Source of the DNA: Komagataeibacter sp. FXV3
GTDB taxonomy: Bacteria > Pseudomonadota > Alphaproteobacteria > Acetobacterales > Acetobacteraceae
Direction of reading: 5' to 3'
Assembly: GCF_015155755.1 (NCBI RefSeq)
Contig: NZ_VWPI01000119.1
Location: forward strand, 1 to 33,702
DNA: 33,702 nucleotides
This document shows, one piece after another, positions 13,723-18,566 of the stretch. The notes beneath the pieces are model-generated. The model saw only the letters and a program-made list of their open reading frames with translations. It did not search any database and was not told the DNA's origin. A program made the translations under genes and the position numbers. Every line of letters starts with the position of its first letter. The stretch's first letter is position 1.

Positions 13723-14448
13723 TCAGACCGGGGCGATCCGGTGCAGGCTGGCGCCATGGTCATGCAGCCATTTTTCGGCCTGACGCCGGTGCGGGGTCAG
13801 GCTGTCCACCAATAACCAGAAATCCGGCCCGTGATTCATGTGCCGCAGATGCGCGAGTTCATGGGCAATGATGTAATGCTGAACCTCCAGCGGTGCCATG
13901 ACCAGCCGCCAGCACAGCATGATCGACCCATCGGATGAACAGCTACCCCACCGGCTTTTCGTATCGCGCAGCCTGACCTGTATCGGTTTCAGGCCGCAGG
14001 TTTCGGCCTGCGCGCGCAGGCGGGCGGGCAGACGGACCTGCGCCTGTGCGCGTAGATAGGCGCTGACACGGCGGGGGACGAATTCTTCCGCACCGCTGAC
14101 ATGCAGCACCCCGTCTTCCAGCCATACGCCACGCCGTGCGTCGGGACAGTGGCGGATTTCATGGCGCCGCCCATCCAGCACGACATGGCCGCCATGGCAC
14201 AGGTCAACAGGCGGTGGCAGGCGTGACAGCCCCGCCGCCACCCATGCGGAATGCGCGCGCAGCAGCGCCAGCCCGTCCGATTTGCGCGCGCCACGCGGCA
14301 GGGTAATGACGACATGCCCGCTACGGGGATCGATCCGCATGGAAATACGCCGCGCCTGACGCGATGCCCGCCAGCATACCGTGACCTGACCGGACGCGAT
14401 GGGCACGACCTCCGTCCCGGTCGTCACAGTATTCCTGCCATGAAACAT
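13723..14448 (-). CDS. YgjP-type (DUF45) metal-dependent hydrolase
   Basis: Predicted zinc metallopeptidase-like protein of the M48-related DUF45/YgjP family, 241 residues. The zinc motif HELAH (196-200) with a following HMNH and a downstream acidic/Trp region (GPDFW) is present, as is the family signature RWGSCSSDGSIMLCWRL before it. The N-terminal half is a beta-rich domain (RRISMRIDPRSGHVVITLPRG). Cellular role is unknown for the family. The ATG at 14448 is used here, but a GTG seven codons later (14427) has AGGA at good spacing and may be the true start. Both flanks carry copies of the palindromic repeat. Confidence 0.9.
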   Translation of the reverse strand: MFHGRNTVTTGTEVVPIASGQVTVCWRASRQARRISMRIDPRSGHVVITLPRGARKSDGLALLRAHSAWVAAGLSRLPPPVDLCHGGHVVLDGRRHEIRHCPDARRGVWLEDGVLHVSGAEEFVPRRVSAYLRAQAQVRLPARLRAQAETCGLKPIQVRLRDTKSRWGSCSSDGSIMLCWRLVMAPLEVQHYIIAHELAHLRHMNHGPDFWLLVDSLTPHRRQAEKWLHDHGASLHRIAPV

Positions 14449-14466: not shown

Positions 14467-14560
14467 CATTTTTGGTGAAGCTTTTTTCAAAAGGTTTCGA
14501 CAAGACATCGTCTTTTTGAAAAAAAGCAGCAGCCAAAAACTTTTATTACCCTTTTATCAG
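14467..14560. repeat. AT-rich double-hairpin repeat, copy 3
   Basis: Element in the gap between two minus-strand genes, with CATTTTTGGTGAAGCTTTTTTC at its left, a second stem CTTTTTGAAAAAAAG, and CCAAAAACTTTTATTACC then CTTTTATCAG at its right. The right end overlaps the last codons and stop of the YcgN-type gene, so the C-terminus of that protein is encoded by repeat sequence. Confidence 0.8.
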
Positions 14561-15046
14561 CGGCCGGGATGGGCGCGTGCGGCAGAATGCATTCCGTGGG
14601 GCTTCGCCGGGCCAGTCAACCACATGGTCCTCCAGCATGCCCGCCTTGCGTTCACTGATGACCCTGCCGCTTACGGATATGCCTGCCTCATGCACCGTAT
14701 CACGGGTGCCGGACACCAGTGGGTGCCACCATGGCAACGGTTCCCCGTCACGCACCAGCACATACCCACAGGTTGGCGGCAGCCAGTCGATATCCGCCAG
14801 CATTTCTGGCGTCAGGCTGATACAGTCCTGTACCCGGCGCTGACGGTGTTCATAATCGGTACACAGGCACGACGTGGTATCCAGCAGGCGACAGGCGACA
14901 TCGGTAAACAGGACTTCATCCGTCTCGTCCTCACGCAGCTTGTGCAGGCAGCACCGGCCACACCCGTCACACAGCGACTCCCACTGCGTGGAAGACATCT
15001 GCTCAAGGGGTGTCGTTTCCCAGAATGGCGGGGTGTCATCTGTCAT
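14546..15046 (-). CDS. YcgN family cysteine-cluster protein
   Basis: UPF0260/YcgN family protein of 166 residues with a zinc- or iron-sulfur-type cysteine cluster. Conserved cysteines appear in LCDGCGRCCLHKL (about 26-38), in DVACRLLD, in TSCLCTDY, in VQDCISL and in PTCGYVLV, the full family pattern. The tail (DGEPLPWWHPLVSG, VSGRVISERKAG, VVDWPGEAPRN) is also standard. The family function is unknown. The start lies 35 bases after the mini-permease gene in the same direction, so it may be in the same transcript. The final residues come from the edge of repeat copy 3. Confidence 0.93.
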   Translation of the reverse strand: MTDDTPPFWETTPLEQMSSTQWESLCDGCGRCCLHKLREDETDEVLFTDVACRLLDTTSCLCTDYEHRQRRVQDCISLTPEMLADIDWLPPTCGYVLVRDGEPLPWWHPLVSGTRDTVHEAGISVSGRVISERKAGMLEDHVVDWPGEAPRNAFCRTRPSRPLIKG

Positions 15047-15081: not shown

Positions 15082-15546
15082 TCAATGCCCGGCCACCGCC
15101 GCCATGGCGCATAGCACGATCATACCGAACGAAAACGCCACCACCCCCGCCACCGGCAGGCCCAGCAACGGCAGCCAGAGCAGCCGGAAACGCATTTTCG
15201 CATCCGCTCCCAACCCACAGGCGGTGCGCGACAGGCCCGGCGGAATCCGGTCCAGCACCCGCAGCAGGGGCCACATCGCGGCAGGGGCAAGGCACAGCCC
15301 CTGCACGATACATCTGGCCATTCCGTTCCCATGCGCAAGGTCCGGCCACCATACCGCCAGACCCAGTCCCGGCAGCACAAGACAAAGCAGCATGCCGCGC
15401 AGCAGCACGCACCACGCGGGCCATGCCCGGTACAGCCCGACATGCACCGCCAGCACCAGCCCGCACGCCACCACAAGACCCAGCGCGATACAGGCCCCAT
15501 CCAGCCCCAGTAGCCCGGCCGGACGGACAGCAAGGTCAGGCGGCAT
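15082..15546 (-). CDS. Miniature ABC-type permease-like membrane protein
   Basis: Predicted inner-membrane protein of 154 residues with about four hydrophobic helices (near 12-36, 40-68, 75-100 and 125-150). The stretch TACGLGADAKMRFRLLWLPLL matches the EAA loop that docks a permease onto its ATPase (A--LG------F---LP). It resembles the C-terminal half of PotB/PotC/ThiP-type subunits, which normally have six helices and 260-290 residues. The start ATG shares one base with the stop of the binding-protein gene (TGATG), so translation is coupled. No in-frame continuation of a longer permease was found in neighbouring frames. It may be a reduced functional subunit or a decayed one; the intact frame favours retention. 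Confidence 0.7.
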   Translation of the reverse strand: MPPDLAVRPAGLLGLDGACIALGLVVACGLVLAVHVGLYRAWPAWCVLLRGMLLCLVLPGLGLAVWWPDLAHGNGMARCIVQGLCLAPAAMWPLLRVLDRIPPGLSRTACGLGADAKMRFRLLWLPLLGLPVAGVVAFSFGMIVLCAMAAVAGH

Positions 15547-16574
15547 CAGCCCGCATCCCGCAACCATGTCTCAAAGCGGCGTGACAGGTCGGGGTAATGT
15601 GCCTGCCAGAACTGCACATCCACCGGCAACGCCACGGGCGCATGCGCCGTATCGGGTGGCGTCGCGGCAGGATAGCGGGCAAGGAACGCGGCCTGCTGGT
15701 CAGGTTGGATGATAAAGTGCAGCAGGTTGCGCGCCTGCCCCAGCCGGAAGGCCGACTGCCCGGCCACCACGCCCCATGACAGGCCATAGGACAGCGCCAT
15801 GTCCGTATTGATGCCGATCCTGTCCCTGTAGCGCGTAGCAATGCTGCGCACCGCGTCACCGGGCGCGCTGCCCATCAGCACCTGTCCGTGTTCAAGAATA
15901 CTGGTGGCGTCCGCCGGGGTGGACCACCACGTGATATAGGGGCGAAGCTGGCTCAGCTTGCGAAAGGCGCGATCGACACCCTGCGGTGTGGCAAGCTGGC
16001 CATACACATCGCCCGGCGCCACGCCATCGGCCATGAGCGCGATTTCCAGCGTGGTACGCGGGTCACGCCGCAGGCCACGCTTGCCGGGAAAACGCACGAT
16101 ATCCCAGAAATCAACCCAGCGTGGCGCAAGTCTGCGCCGTGTCTGGTCCCATGCCACCACGATCTGGGTTGTCATGCCCGGCACACCGCACCCGTCGGGG
16201 TTGGTGGCGCTACCGGCCAGGTGAATGACCAGTTCACGCACGCAGGCGGCGCGGATGGTGCTGTCCTCGGCAAAGACCAGTGACCATGTACCCGCGCGTC
16301 CCGCATGCAGGCCATGCCTTTCCAGTTCCGTCAGGGTGCCGTTCCATGCCTGCTGCGCCACCGGCTGGTGGGACGCCCGCGCGAAAGGCTGGAGGAAGGC
16401 GGCATTCTGCGCCTGTGTCATCTGCGACTCCGTGCTGGCGACCACAAGGGCGGCCTTATGCCGTACGGGGGTCGCAGCAACAGCCGAAACAGACCGGACG
16501 GACGGGGCGAAGGACGCCACCAGCAGGCTCAACAGGCCGATACGGACGCGGGGACGGGACGCAAACTGGAACAC
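15546..16574 (-). CDS. PotD-like periplasmic substrate-binding protein
   Basis: Extracellular solute-binding protein, family 1/polyamine type, 342 residues. It has a signal peptide (Arg-rich start, hydrophobic 12-24, likely cut after SAVAA near 34). The block WVDFWDIVRFPGKRGLRRDP, then LEIALMADGV and a stretch ending WWSTPADATSILEHGQVLMGSAPGD, follows the PotD/PotF pattern for spermidine/putrescine-type binders closely. The ligand is not certain: the residues that grip polyamine amines were not verified. It lies 44 bases after the ATPase-like gene and overlaps the mini-permease by one base. Confidence 0.85.
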   Translation of the reverse strand: MFQFASRPRVRIGLLSLLVASFAPSVRSVSAVAATPVRHKAALVVASTESQMTQAQNAAFLQPFARASHQPVAQQAWNGTLTELERHGLHAGRAGTWSLVFAEDSTIRAACVRELVIHLAGSATNPDGCGVPGMTTQIVVAWDQTRRRLAPRWVDFWDIVRFPGKRGLRRDPRTTLEIALMADGVAPGDVYGQLATPQGVDRAFRKLSQLRPYITWWSTPADATSILEHGQVLMGSAPGDAVRSIATRYRDRIGINTDMALSYGLSWGVVAGQSAFRLGQARNLLHFIIQPDQQAAFLARYPAATPPDTAHAPVALPVDVQFWQAHYPDLSRRFETWLRDAG

Positions 16575-16618
16575 GGACAGGAAACAATCTTTCAGGCAGG
16601 GGCGAAGAATGCCGGACG

Positions 16619-17734
16619 CTACCCCATTTCACCCCGGAACGGAAAGGCAATTGCCTGCCCCGGCTGCCACGCCAGTATGGCCACCTGCCCCGCCGCCACA
16701 CGCTGCAGGGCGGGGGTGGGCGGACGGCGCGCCAGCAGTTCCTCCCCATTCGCCAGCCTGAAGCGCAGCAGCACATGATCGCCCATCTGCCGCATGTCCG
16801 TCAGGGTCGCCTCCAGCACCGGCGGCCCGTCGGGGTCAGCGCCCCCCGCCATGCCGGGGCGCGAGGGGAACATGACCGCGATCCGGTCCGGCCGGATGCA
16901 CAGCATGGCCAGTTGATCCGCCTCCACGCCCGGGGCGGCCATGGCTTCGACCGGCAGGCCACCGGGCAGGTGCGCAAGGGCCACATCATCCTCGACACTG
17001 GCCACGCGGACCGTCAGGCTGTTGGCATGGCCGAACCCGGTCGCCACCCGGTCGCAAGCAGGGCGGTCGAACAGGTCCAGCGCCGTGCCAAGCTGCACGA
17101 TCTCCATGCCATCCATATAGGCAATCGTATCCCCCAGCAGCAGCGCATCCTCGCGCCCCCGCGTCAGCAGCACCACGCACAGGCCACGCGCGCGCACCAG
17201 CCGGCCGACCAGACGCCGCATGGCCACGCGGGCCGCAGGCGGCAGCGGCGTAAAGGGATCATCCAGCACCAGAACGGGGGGTTCGAACACCAGGGCGCGG
17301 CCAATCATGACACGCAGCGCCTGTTCGGGTGAAAGGGTGGCGGGACGGGCATGTTCCAGCCCATCCAGCCCCAGCAGCGCCAGCACGGCGCGCACCCGTG
17401 CCGCCACGGCGTGCGATTCCTCCCCGCGTGCCCGCAACGCGAAGGCCAGGTTGGCCTGAACCGTCATGTGGGCGAACAGCGGATCGCGCCATCCCACCAG
17501 CGCGCATGGCCGCCGGTCGGGTGGCAGGCCGGTCACGTCAACCCCGTCAACCATGACCTGCCCCGCGCAGGTGGATACATGGCCCACCAGCATGTCCGCC
17601 AGCACGCACAGGCAGTCGGTCCTGTCATTGACAACCGTCAGGCACTGGCCCGCCGCGGCAGAAAAAGACAGGCCCGGCGCACCGGAAAAGGCCCGGAGCG
17701 CGTTGACAACCAGCCGAATGGAGAAAGGAGACAT
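16619..17734 (-). CDS. Degenerate PotA-like ABC ATPase homologue (pseudo-ATPase)
   Basis: ABC ATPase-fold protein of 371 residues with a C-terminal TOBE-type domain (about 240-371), matching PotA in length and order. Every catalytic motif is altered. The Walker A site GxxGxGKT is replaced by NDRTDCLC (36-43). The Q-loop glutamine is lost (VGWRDPLFAH, 80-89). The signature LSGGQ reads LSPEQ (134-138). Walker B is VLVLDDP (154-160) with Asp in place of the catalytic Glu. The D-loop SALD is TPLP, and the switch His is Arg192 (LTRGRED). The fold-defining text (FAHMTVQANLAFALRARG, GTALDLFDRPA) remains. It is predicted not to bind or hydrolyse ATP normally. First gene of the three-gene locus. Confidence 0.85.
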   Translation of the reverse strand: MSPFSIRLVVNALRAFSGAPGLSFSAAAGQCLTVVNDRTDCLCVLADMLVGHVSTCAGQVMVDGVDVTGLPPDRRPCALVGWRDPLFAHMTVQANLAFALRARGEESHAVAARVRAVLALLGLDGLEHARPATLSPEQALRVMIGRALVFEPPVLVLDDPFTPLPPAARVAMRRLVGRLVRARGLCVVLLTRGREDALLLGDTIAYMDGMEIVQLGTALDLFDRPACDRVATGFGHANSLTVRVASVEDDVALAHLPGGLPVEAMAAPGVEADQLAMLCIRPDRIAVMFPSRPGMAGGADPDGPPVLEATLTDMRQMGDHVLLRFRLANGEELLARRPPTPALQRVAAGQVAILAWQPGQAIAFPFRGEMG

Positions 17735-18131: not shown

Positions 18132-18566
18132 ATGAGAATAGGCGAAATCGGTAAAACCATCATTGAAGGGGAACTGACCCTACGCAAGCTGATGGCGATC
18201 CGTCTTGGTCGTCAGGCTGCATTCCTGGTTGTGGCGGCTATCTTTGCTTTTTTCGCAGTCATTTCGGGCCATGGGCTGCTGTGGGCCTTCTGTTACCAGA
18301 CACTGGGCTTCAGCGCCCTTGGTTCGGCTGCGGCCGTATTCGGGGCCGATCTTCTGGTGGTTGTCATGGGGCTGGTCATGGGCCGGCGTTCCTACATGAC
18401 ACCGGAAGAAATCCGTGTACGATTCGCACGTGAACACGCCCTGAACGAACTGCGGCAGACCGTTGCCCTGTCCGCCGTGGCCACGACGGTTGCCGGTCCG
18501 CTGACCCGCCATACCGGCCGGGCGGTATGGAACCTGTTCAAGGTCATGACGGGGCGCGGAAAATAA
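18132..18566 (+). CDS. YqjE-like (DUF1469/phage holin superfamily III) membrane protein
   Basis: Inner-membrane protein of 144 residues with two membrane helices (about 28-50 and 61-84) separated by a short loop, preceded by a basic amphipathic stretch (GELTLRKLMAIRLGRQ) and followed by a cytoplasmic helical tail. This matches the YqjE/DUF1469 family that sits next to YqjD-type genes. The function of the family is not known. The start follows a GAGGATACGCGAGC leader. It probably forms an operon with the DUF883 gene before it and is followed by a perfect hairpin at 18592-18619. Confidence 0.8.
   Translation: MRIGEIGKTIIEGELTLRKLMAIRLGRQAAFLVVAAIFAFFAVISGHGLLWAFCYQTLGFSALGSAAAVFGADLLVVVMGLVMGRRSYMTPEEIRVRFAREHALNELRQTVALSAVATTVAGPLTRHTGRAVWNLFKVMTGRGK

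Follow-up and report, generated by a model that had tools for sequence, protein, structure and literature searches.

The window, the whole 33,702-nucleotide stretch of DNA analyzed here, contains three neighboring genes on the minus strand that we call A, D, and B (Table 1). Judging from gene order and overlap, they form one predicted operon with A as its first gene. The position, strand, length, and unbroken frame that the first-pass annotation had given for gene A proved exact, with 371 codons followed by a stop and no internal stop codon. The homology sits in this minus-strand frame, which lies over long open reading frames of the plus strand, such as that at 16280–17332. Downstream of B are a gene for a CxxCxxCC protein, which we take to be ycgN, and a YgjP-like gene. 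On the other side of A, the gene for a small membrane protein is a very constant upstream marker of the locus across the family.

Table 1. Features of the A-D-B locus in the window, and the loci of other genera that combine D with Mla genes
Feature	Position	Strand	Remarks
Gene A, PotA/MalK-type pseudo-ATPase	16619..17734	-	371 aa; first in the predicted operon
Former Walker A loop NDRTDCLC of A, residues 36-43	17606..17629	-	no Lys/Thr
Former Q-loop segment WRDPLFAHMTVQANLAF of A, residues 82-98	17441..17491	-	conservation 97th percentile
TOBE_2 domain of A, residues 278-364	16643..16903	-	Pfam 45.2 bits, cut-off 21
Gene D, diverged solute-binding protein (by sequence)	15546..16574	-	SBP_bac_8 74 bits, cut-off 27; GTG start
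Gene B, read as a 161-aa half permease	15082..15567	-	its start shares 22 bases with the end of D
EAA-type coupling loop of B, about residues 111-136	15160..15237	-	32 aligned sequences
ycgN-like CxxCxxCC protein	14546..15046	-	conserved downstream neighbor
YgjP-like metallopeptidase-domain gene	13723..14448	-	conserved downstream neighbor
144-aa membrane protein, divergent from A	18132..18566	+	weakly holin-X-like, 15.5 of 28.4 bits
Loci with D and Mla genes			L118, L122, L131, L149-L151, L153, L154, L156-L158, L161, L162, L165, L174, L178, L183

Products of the predicted operon

The Pfam domain ABC_tran matches residues 45–161 of gene A with 41.4 bits (cut-off 25), and the TOBE_2 domain that follows also exceeds its cut-off, which gives the NBD-then-TOBE architecture of PotA/MalK-type proteins. 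The AlphaFold model is confident, with a mean pLDDT of 92.4, and its best PDB matches by Foldseek are MalK (9bcr_D) and PotA (8zx1_A), with TM scores of 0.85–0.86. The earlier statement that the fold and the TOBE domain are kept is confirmed by these results. The scores against NCBIfam PotA (140.8 bits) and PhnT (143.6 bits) fall short of the family scores of 355.6 and 499.15, respectively.

Although gene A shares the full-length NBD and TOBE fold with the PotA/MalK family, it lacks the catalytic set of that family, which consists of GxxGxGK[ST], DE, LSGGQ, the Q-loop Gln, and the switch His. When aligned with canonical relatives, the Lys column of Walker A contains a Leu, Trp82 occupies the column of the Q-loop Gln, the signature reads LSPEQ, and the Walker B pair is Asp-Asp. 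The final residue of the D-loop is a Pro, and the switch residue is Arg192. The first-pass annotation had described every ATPase motif as lost, which holds for Walker A, the Q-loop, the catalytic Glu, the D-loop, and the switch, but goes too far for the Walker B Asp and for the Ser and Gln of the signature, which are still present in the window copy. By its sequence, gene A encodes an ABC protein of the MalK/PotA type that is complete in length but whose ATP site is destroyed, and the protein is predicted to be catalytically dead.

Gene D scores above the gathering threshold of SBP_bac_8, as expected of a polyamine-class binding protein, with the Pfam match starting only at residue 91. By eye, its N terminus resembles a signal peptide. 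Relatives in the PDB, found by sequence, include binding proteins of the polyamine, GABA-sensor, and opine types. The best of these matches, 4i1d, is confined to profile positions 139–250, and the match to 5l9s spans profile positions 43–311. In common with polyamine-class binding proteins of the PotD/YdcS type (we assume YdcS to be an example of the class), D retains the conserved segment FWDIVRFPGKRGLRRDP...LEIALMADGV...RPYITWWS, which aligns with 4i1d and 3rpw. By sequence, D is classed as a diverged binding protein of the polyamine class.

A type I ABC importer contains two full permeases, or one homodimerizing permease, of five to six transmembrane segments. The locus has a single 161-residue permease gene, B, and hence not a complete permease set. 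BPD_transp_1 reaches 16.5 bits on B, below the cut-off of 26.4, and another B, at locus L112, has no BPD match whatever. The EAA-type coupling loop of a type I importer is present in B, with Leu119, Gly120, Ala121, and Pro133 invariant among the 32 aligned sequences and Arg114, Arg128, and Trp131 found in at least 90% of them. In the model of B (pLDDT 77.8), four long helices are accompanied by a short coupling helix. The first Foldseek match of B is PotC with an E value of 0.029, and 45 of the 50 matches listed are chains of ABC-importer entries, none of the matches passing an E value of 0.001. We read B as a truncated permease of a type I importer. The first-pass annotation dealt with gene A alone; the whole transporter is altered, with a half-size permease and a diverged D.

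That annotation had also proposed that A may borrow a second active subunit. Gene A would then pair with a live ABC ATPase encoded elsewhere and still take part in transport. There are 55 ABC_tran matches in the genome of the window, gene A among them, and other PotA-like proteins occur, e.g. on contig C149. The ABC gene near 31.9 kb of the window encodes, by eye, a polar amino-acid-type ATPase. The available part of PMC7658222 reports exchangeable ATPases for type I importers. However, each composite ATP site combines the Walker A and B motifs from one subunit with the signature from its partner (PMC7756269, available part), and A has lost both halves, so that neither composite site could be rebuilt with a partner. 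The exporters with a degenerate site that are described in the available part of PMC7756269 (TM287/288, TAP, and ABCG5/G8) likewise contain a selected ABC subunit with altered catalytic residues, but they keep their other site canonical, whereas in the importer-type system of A both halves of both sites are lost and A completes no consensus site. The four long helices in the model of B also speak against continued transport with a borrowed ATPase, which we regard as very improbable.

Gene A within the genus and the block

Orthologues of gene A were found in all 18 congeners searched, with 79–95% identity, and nine named Komagataeibacter records contain the gene at 80–95% identity. No internal stop is present in the matched part of any of the 19 same-genus copies, 18 of which reach a stop codon while one is cut by a contig end. 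The median dN/dS within the genus, calculated by the Nei-Gojobori method over 171 non-independent pairs from 19 sequences, is 0.206 for A, 0.323 for D, and 0.440 for B, and the neighbors ycgN, marR, up_18132, and ygjP range from 0.09 to 0.20. Values for A in four other genera are 0.195, 0.295, 0.233, and 0.387. B evolves fast, with median values of 0.40–0.62 in the window's genus and other genera. Gene A is under purifying selection, and it shows neither the broken frame nor the dN/dS near 1 of a pseudogene.

Recent decay or a sequencing error was considered as well and is ruled out by the 18 orthologues, the open frames, and a dN/dS of about 0.2. The signs of decay named in the first-pass annotation (intact orthologues in close relatives, frameshifts, and dN/dS near 1) were all absent. 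Its view of A as a retained pseudo-ATPase has held up, given the orthologues in congeners, the purifying selection, the confident fold model, and equal losses in other genera.

A profile of D matches 227 of 299 genomes of the family, and many of these matches are ordinary binding proteins. For comparison, 103 loci were chosen by the author, mostly as the best matches of the D profile; the set is non-random, contains D throughout by construction, and includes just 5 of the 19 loci from the window's genus. The fetched regions are as short as 3.3 kb, and a missing neighbor may therefore reflect the end of a contig or locus. A locus was counted as a block locus when the divergent small membrane protein scored at least 150 bits in it or when ycgN lay downstream. 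By this definition, 55 of the 103 loci, in 23 genera, are of the block type of the window. A dead A was found in 36 of them (16 genera) and no A in 17 (6 genera), and two loci of genus g63 were not fully read, as their fetched pieces do not extend to the Walker A region. Among the 55 block loci no live or half-live A was found, and each of the 36 dead copies was matched in one open frame.

The block sequences of A that could be compared column by column number 35, with the window copy included; 11 come from the window's own genus, and the sequences were weighted for conservation. The Walker A Lys and the catalytic Glu of Walker B are present in none of the 35, which excludes chance or assembly error as the cause of the motif losses. 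The Q-loop Gln and the switch His are each found in one sequence, the second Gly of the signature in two, and the Walker B Asp itself is gone in 12. The replacements recur, with Leu in the Lys column in 27 of 35 sequences and Asp in the Glu column in 28 of 35.

Conservation along the protein was ranked among windows of equal length in the same 35 sequences. The percentile is 10 for the Walker A loop, 41 for the switch, 48 for the signature and the D-loop, and 64 for the Walker B strand. In contrast, the linker (residues 221–238) is at the 96th percentile, two TOBE windows are at the 89th and 99th, and the former Q-loop segment ranks equally high (Table 1). This segment corresponds to the region that we take to be the docking place of the TMD coupling helix in MalK. 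The contrast in percentiles, together with the docking place in MalK, indicates that the putative membrane-partner side and the C-terminal domain are better kept than the ATP side.

MalK exerts regulation through its C-terminal domain towards MalT. By analogy, A could be a cytoplasmic regulator that acts through its TOBE domain, the ATPase fold being a mere carrier, as the high ranks of the TOBE and linker windows (89th–99th percentile) against those of the ATP-site loops (10th–64th) would suggest. However, the only regulator-like neighbor is a MarR gene, which is unmatched in many of 63 loci (with a genus-built profile and some loci short), and the co-occurrence of A with B points to the membrane. 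We consider such a cytoplasmic regulator quite improbable.

The presence of B tracks that of A in all 55 block loci, both being found in 38 and neither in 17. On a tree of ycgN and ygjP from 47 loci there are two changes for A and the identical two for B, and with only two changes the agreement falls short of significance (sign test, p 0.5). The best match of a genome-wide search for A in the 17 genomes without A reached 219 bits, compared with 373–550 bits in nine genomes with an intact copy and 322 bits for the weakest full block A elsewhere (L103). A genome-wide search for B in the same 17 genomes gave at best 24 bits, in frames of about 300 residues, compared with 30–183 bits for the block B of five control genomes. 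These whole-genome searches support a true absence of A and B there. D persists in these six sampled genera, whose genomes measure 1.9–2.7 Mb, and in being kept without a cognate ATPase and half permease it differs from polyamine-class binding proteins.

Genome G159 (locus L147, genus g63) has a fragmented D and an A interrupted by an in-frame stop codon; its B and ycgN can still be matched, and A of its congener G080 is a single open frame. The split A and the fragmented D of G159 indicate that the operon can be dispensable. As a check on the bias of selecting by D, an A profile was run over 20 of the 72 genomes with no match to D. Among the 24 matches fetched from these genomes, 23 keep Walker A. 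The remaining one, L217 (also L240; genome G043, genus g26), is a further dead A with the marker gene next to it; the contig breaks off within A, before any downstream D could be seen.

Loci outside the block and Mla genes

The 48 non-block loci contain a canonical A in 14 cases, a partial one in 6, and a dead one in 3; the remaining 25 have no A, or only a match below 190 bits, mostly to MlaF. In the partial copies (L111, L122, L155, L165, L171, and L175), Walker A is kept and other motifs are lost. L162 may be one more degenerate A. Several non-block loci have the divergent marker gene at lower scores. In a tree of D (89 rows, built by a quick method after 12 near-duplicate rows and 2 rows shorter than 200 residues had been left out), the 46 non-block rows form one group with 98% SH-aLRT support. 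The simplest account is that ancestors with a live ATPase were followed by stepwise loss, the polarity being deduced. Five loci (L160, L164, L166, L170, and L183) have a canonical A beside D and no adjoining permease by a simple scan for the EAA motif; their permease may be elsewhere or may have been missed.

Canonical, partial, dead, and absent forms of A within one family could also reflect slow decay, in which function was lost in an ancestor and the genes then decayed separately in each lineage, starting with A and B and ending with D. The half-size B, the stop in A of G159 set against the open frame of G080, and the absence of A and B from six genera with genomes of 1.9–2.7 Mb would all fit such a course. 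Erosion of this kind is difficult to reconcile with a dN/dS of 0.2–0.4 for A in five genera, not near 1, or with 36 of 36 dead copies in one open frame across 16 genera. The recurrence of the same replacements at the dead site (11 of the 35 sequences being from one genus) also argues against it, as does a dN/dS of 0.21 for D in genus g49, which is without A and B (6 of 10 pairs usable). Slow decay is therefore unlikely in our judgment.

Of the 103 loci, 17 have MlaE downstream of D in the same orientation; they belong to 16 genera and all lie outside the block (Table 1). MlaE adjoins D in 14 of them, and other genes intervene in L118, L122, and L131. MlaF and MlaD are also present in 16 of the 17, and at L154 only MlaE was seen. 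Pfam scans of four of these MlaE proteins and one MlaD protein confirmed the STAS-MlaE and MlaD domains, respectively. By contrast, no Mla gene was seen in the stretches fetched for the 55 block loci, where ycgN and ygjP take that position instead; 31 of the 48 other loci have none in their fetched stretches either. The downstream, same-strand linkage to MlaE ties the binding protein of those 16 genera to an MCE-type lipid transport operon. This gene order suggests an older role of D beside an MCE/Mla phospholipid-transport operon.

No Mla operon was seen within the window, and the genome to which the window belongs has MlaE three times, each on other contigs. A second conserved pseudo-ATPase of the same genome lies outside the window, at about 27.8–30.3 kb of contig C1 (L193:3795-6332). 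It is a 231-residue MlaF-like protein encoded between an MlaE and an MlaD gene, with no recognizable Walker A and an ABC_tran score of 18.3 bits (cut-off 25). Its orthologues are found in 18 of 18 congeners (82–98%) and in genome G019 (46%).

Proposed role of the assembly

The best explanation, and the one towards which we lean, is that D, B, and the pseudo-NBD form an ATP-independent assembly derived from an importer. A would be the catalytically dead NBD homologue of a former polyamine-class ABC importer, presumably of the type named PotABCD/YdcSTUV. It would dock on B through the conserved RDPLFxHLTVxxN segment, as conservation and co-occurrence suggest, and such docking is favored because rescue of A by a live partner is improbable. 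Together with its TOBE domain, A may hold B as a scaffold in the membrane that supports the periplasmic D independently of ATP. The assembly would not pump; it would sense or present a periplasmic ligand, or stabilize an envelope complex. The role as a regulator, scaffold, or sensor that the first-pass annotation suggested for A would be compatible with these results. The longest-lived function would belong to D, since D outlasts A and B in the six sampled genera.

A broader proposal can be put forward tentatively, and we think it rather unlikely as a whole. Across the family, the importer would have become an ATP-independent envelope complex in which the pseudo-NBD locks the half-size B as a passive anchor for a repurposed D, once or still beside MCE-type lipid traffic.

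No description of an A-D-B operon was found in the titles and abstract openings of the papers listed in literature searches. To our knowledge, ABC subunits without catalytic activity have been described mainly in systems that retain an active partner. In the conserved importer-type system described here, both ATP sites would be dead, and live, half-decayed, dead, and absent versions occur within one family. This provides a natural series for asking what the ABC architecture does without ATP and which subunit bears the selected function. Annotation by homology would label A, D, and B a polyamine transporter, which would lead to misleading metabolic models of these bacteria.
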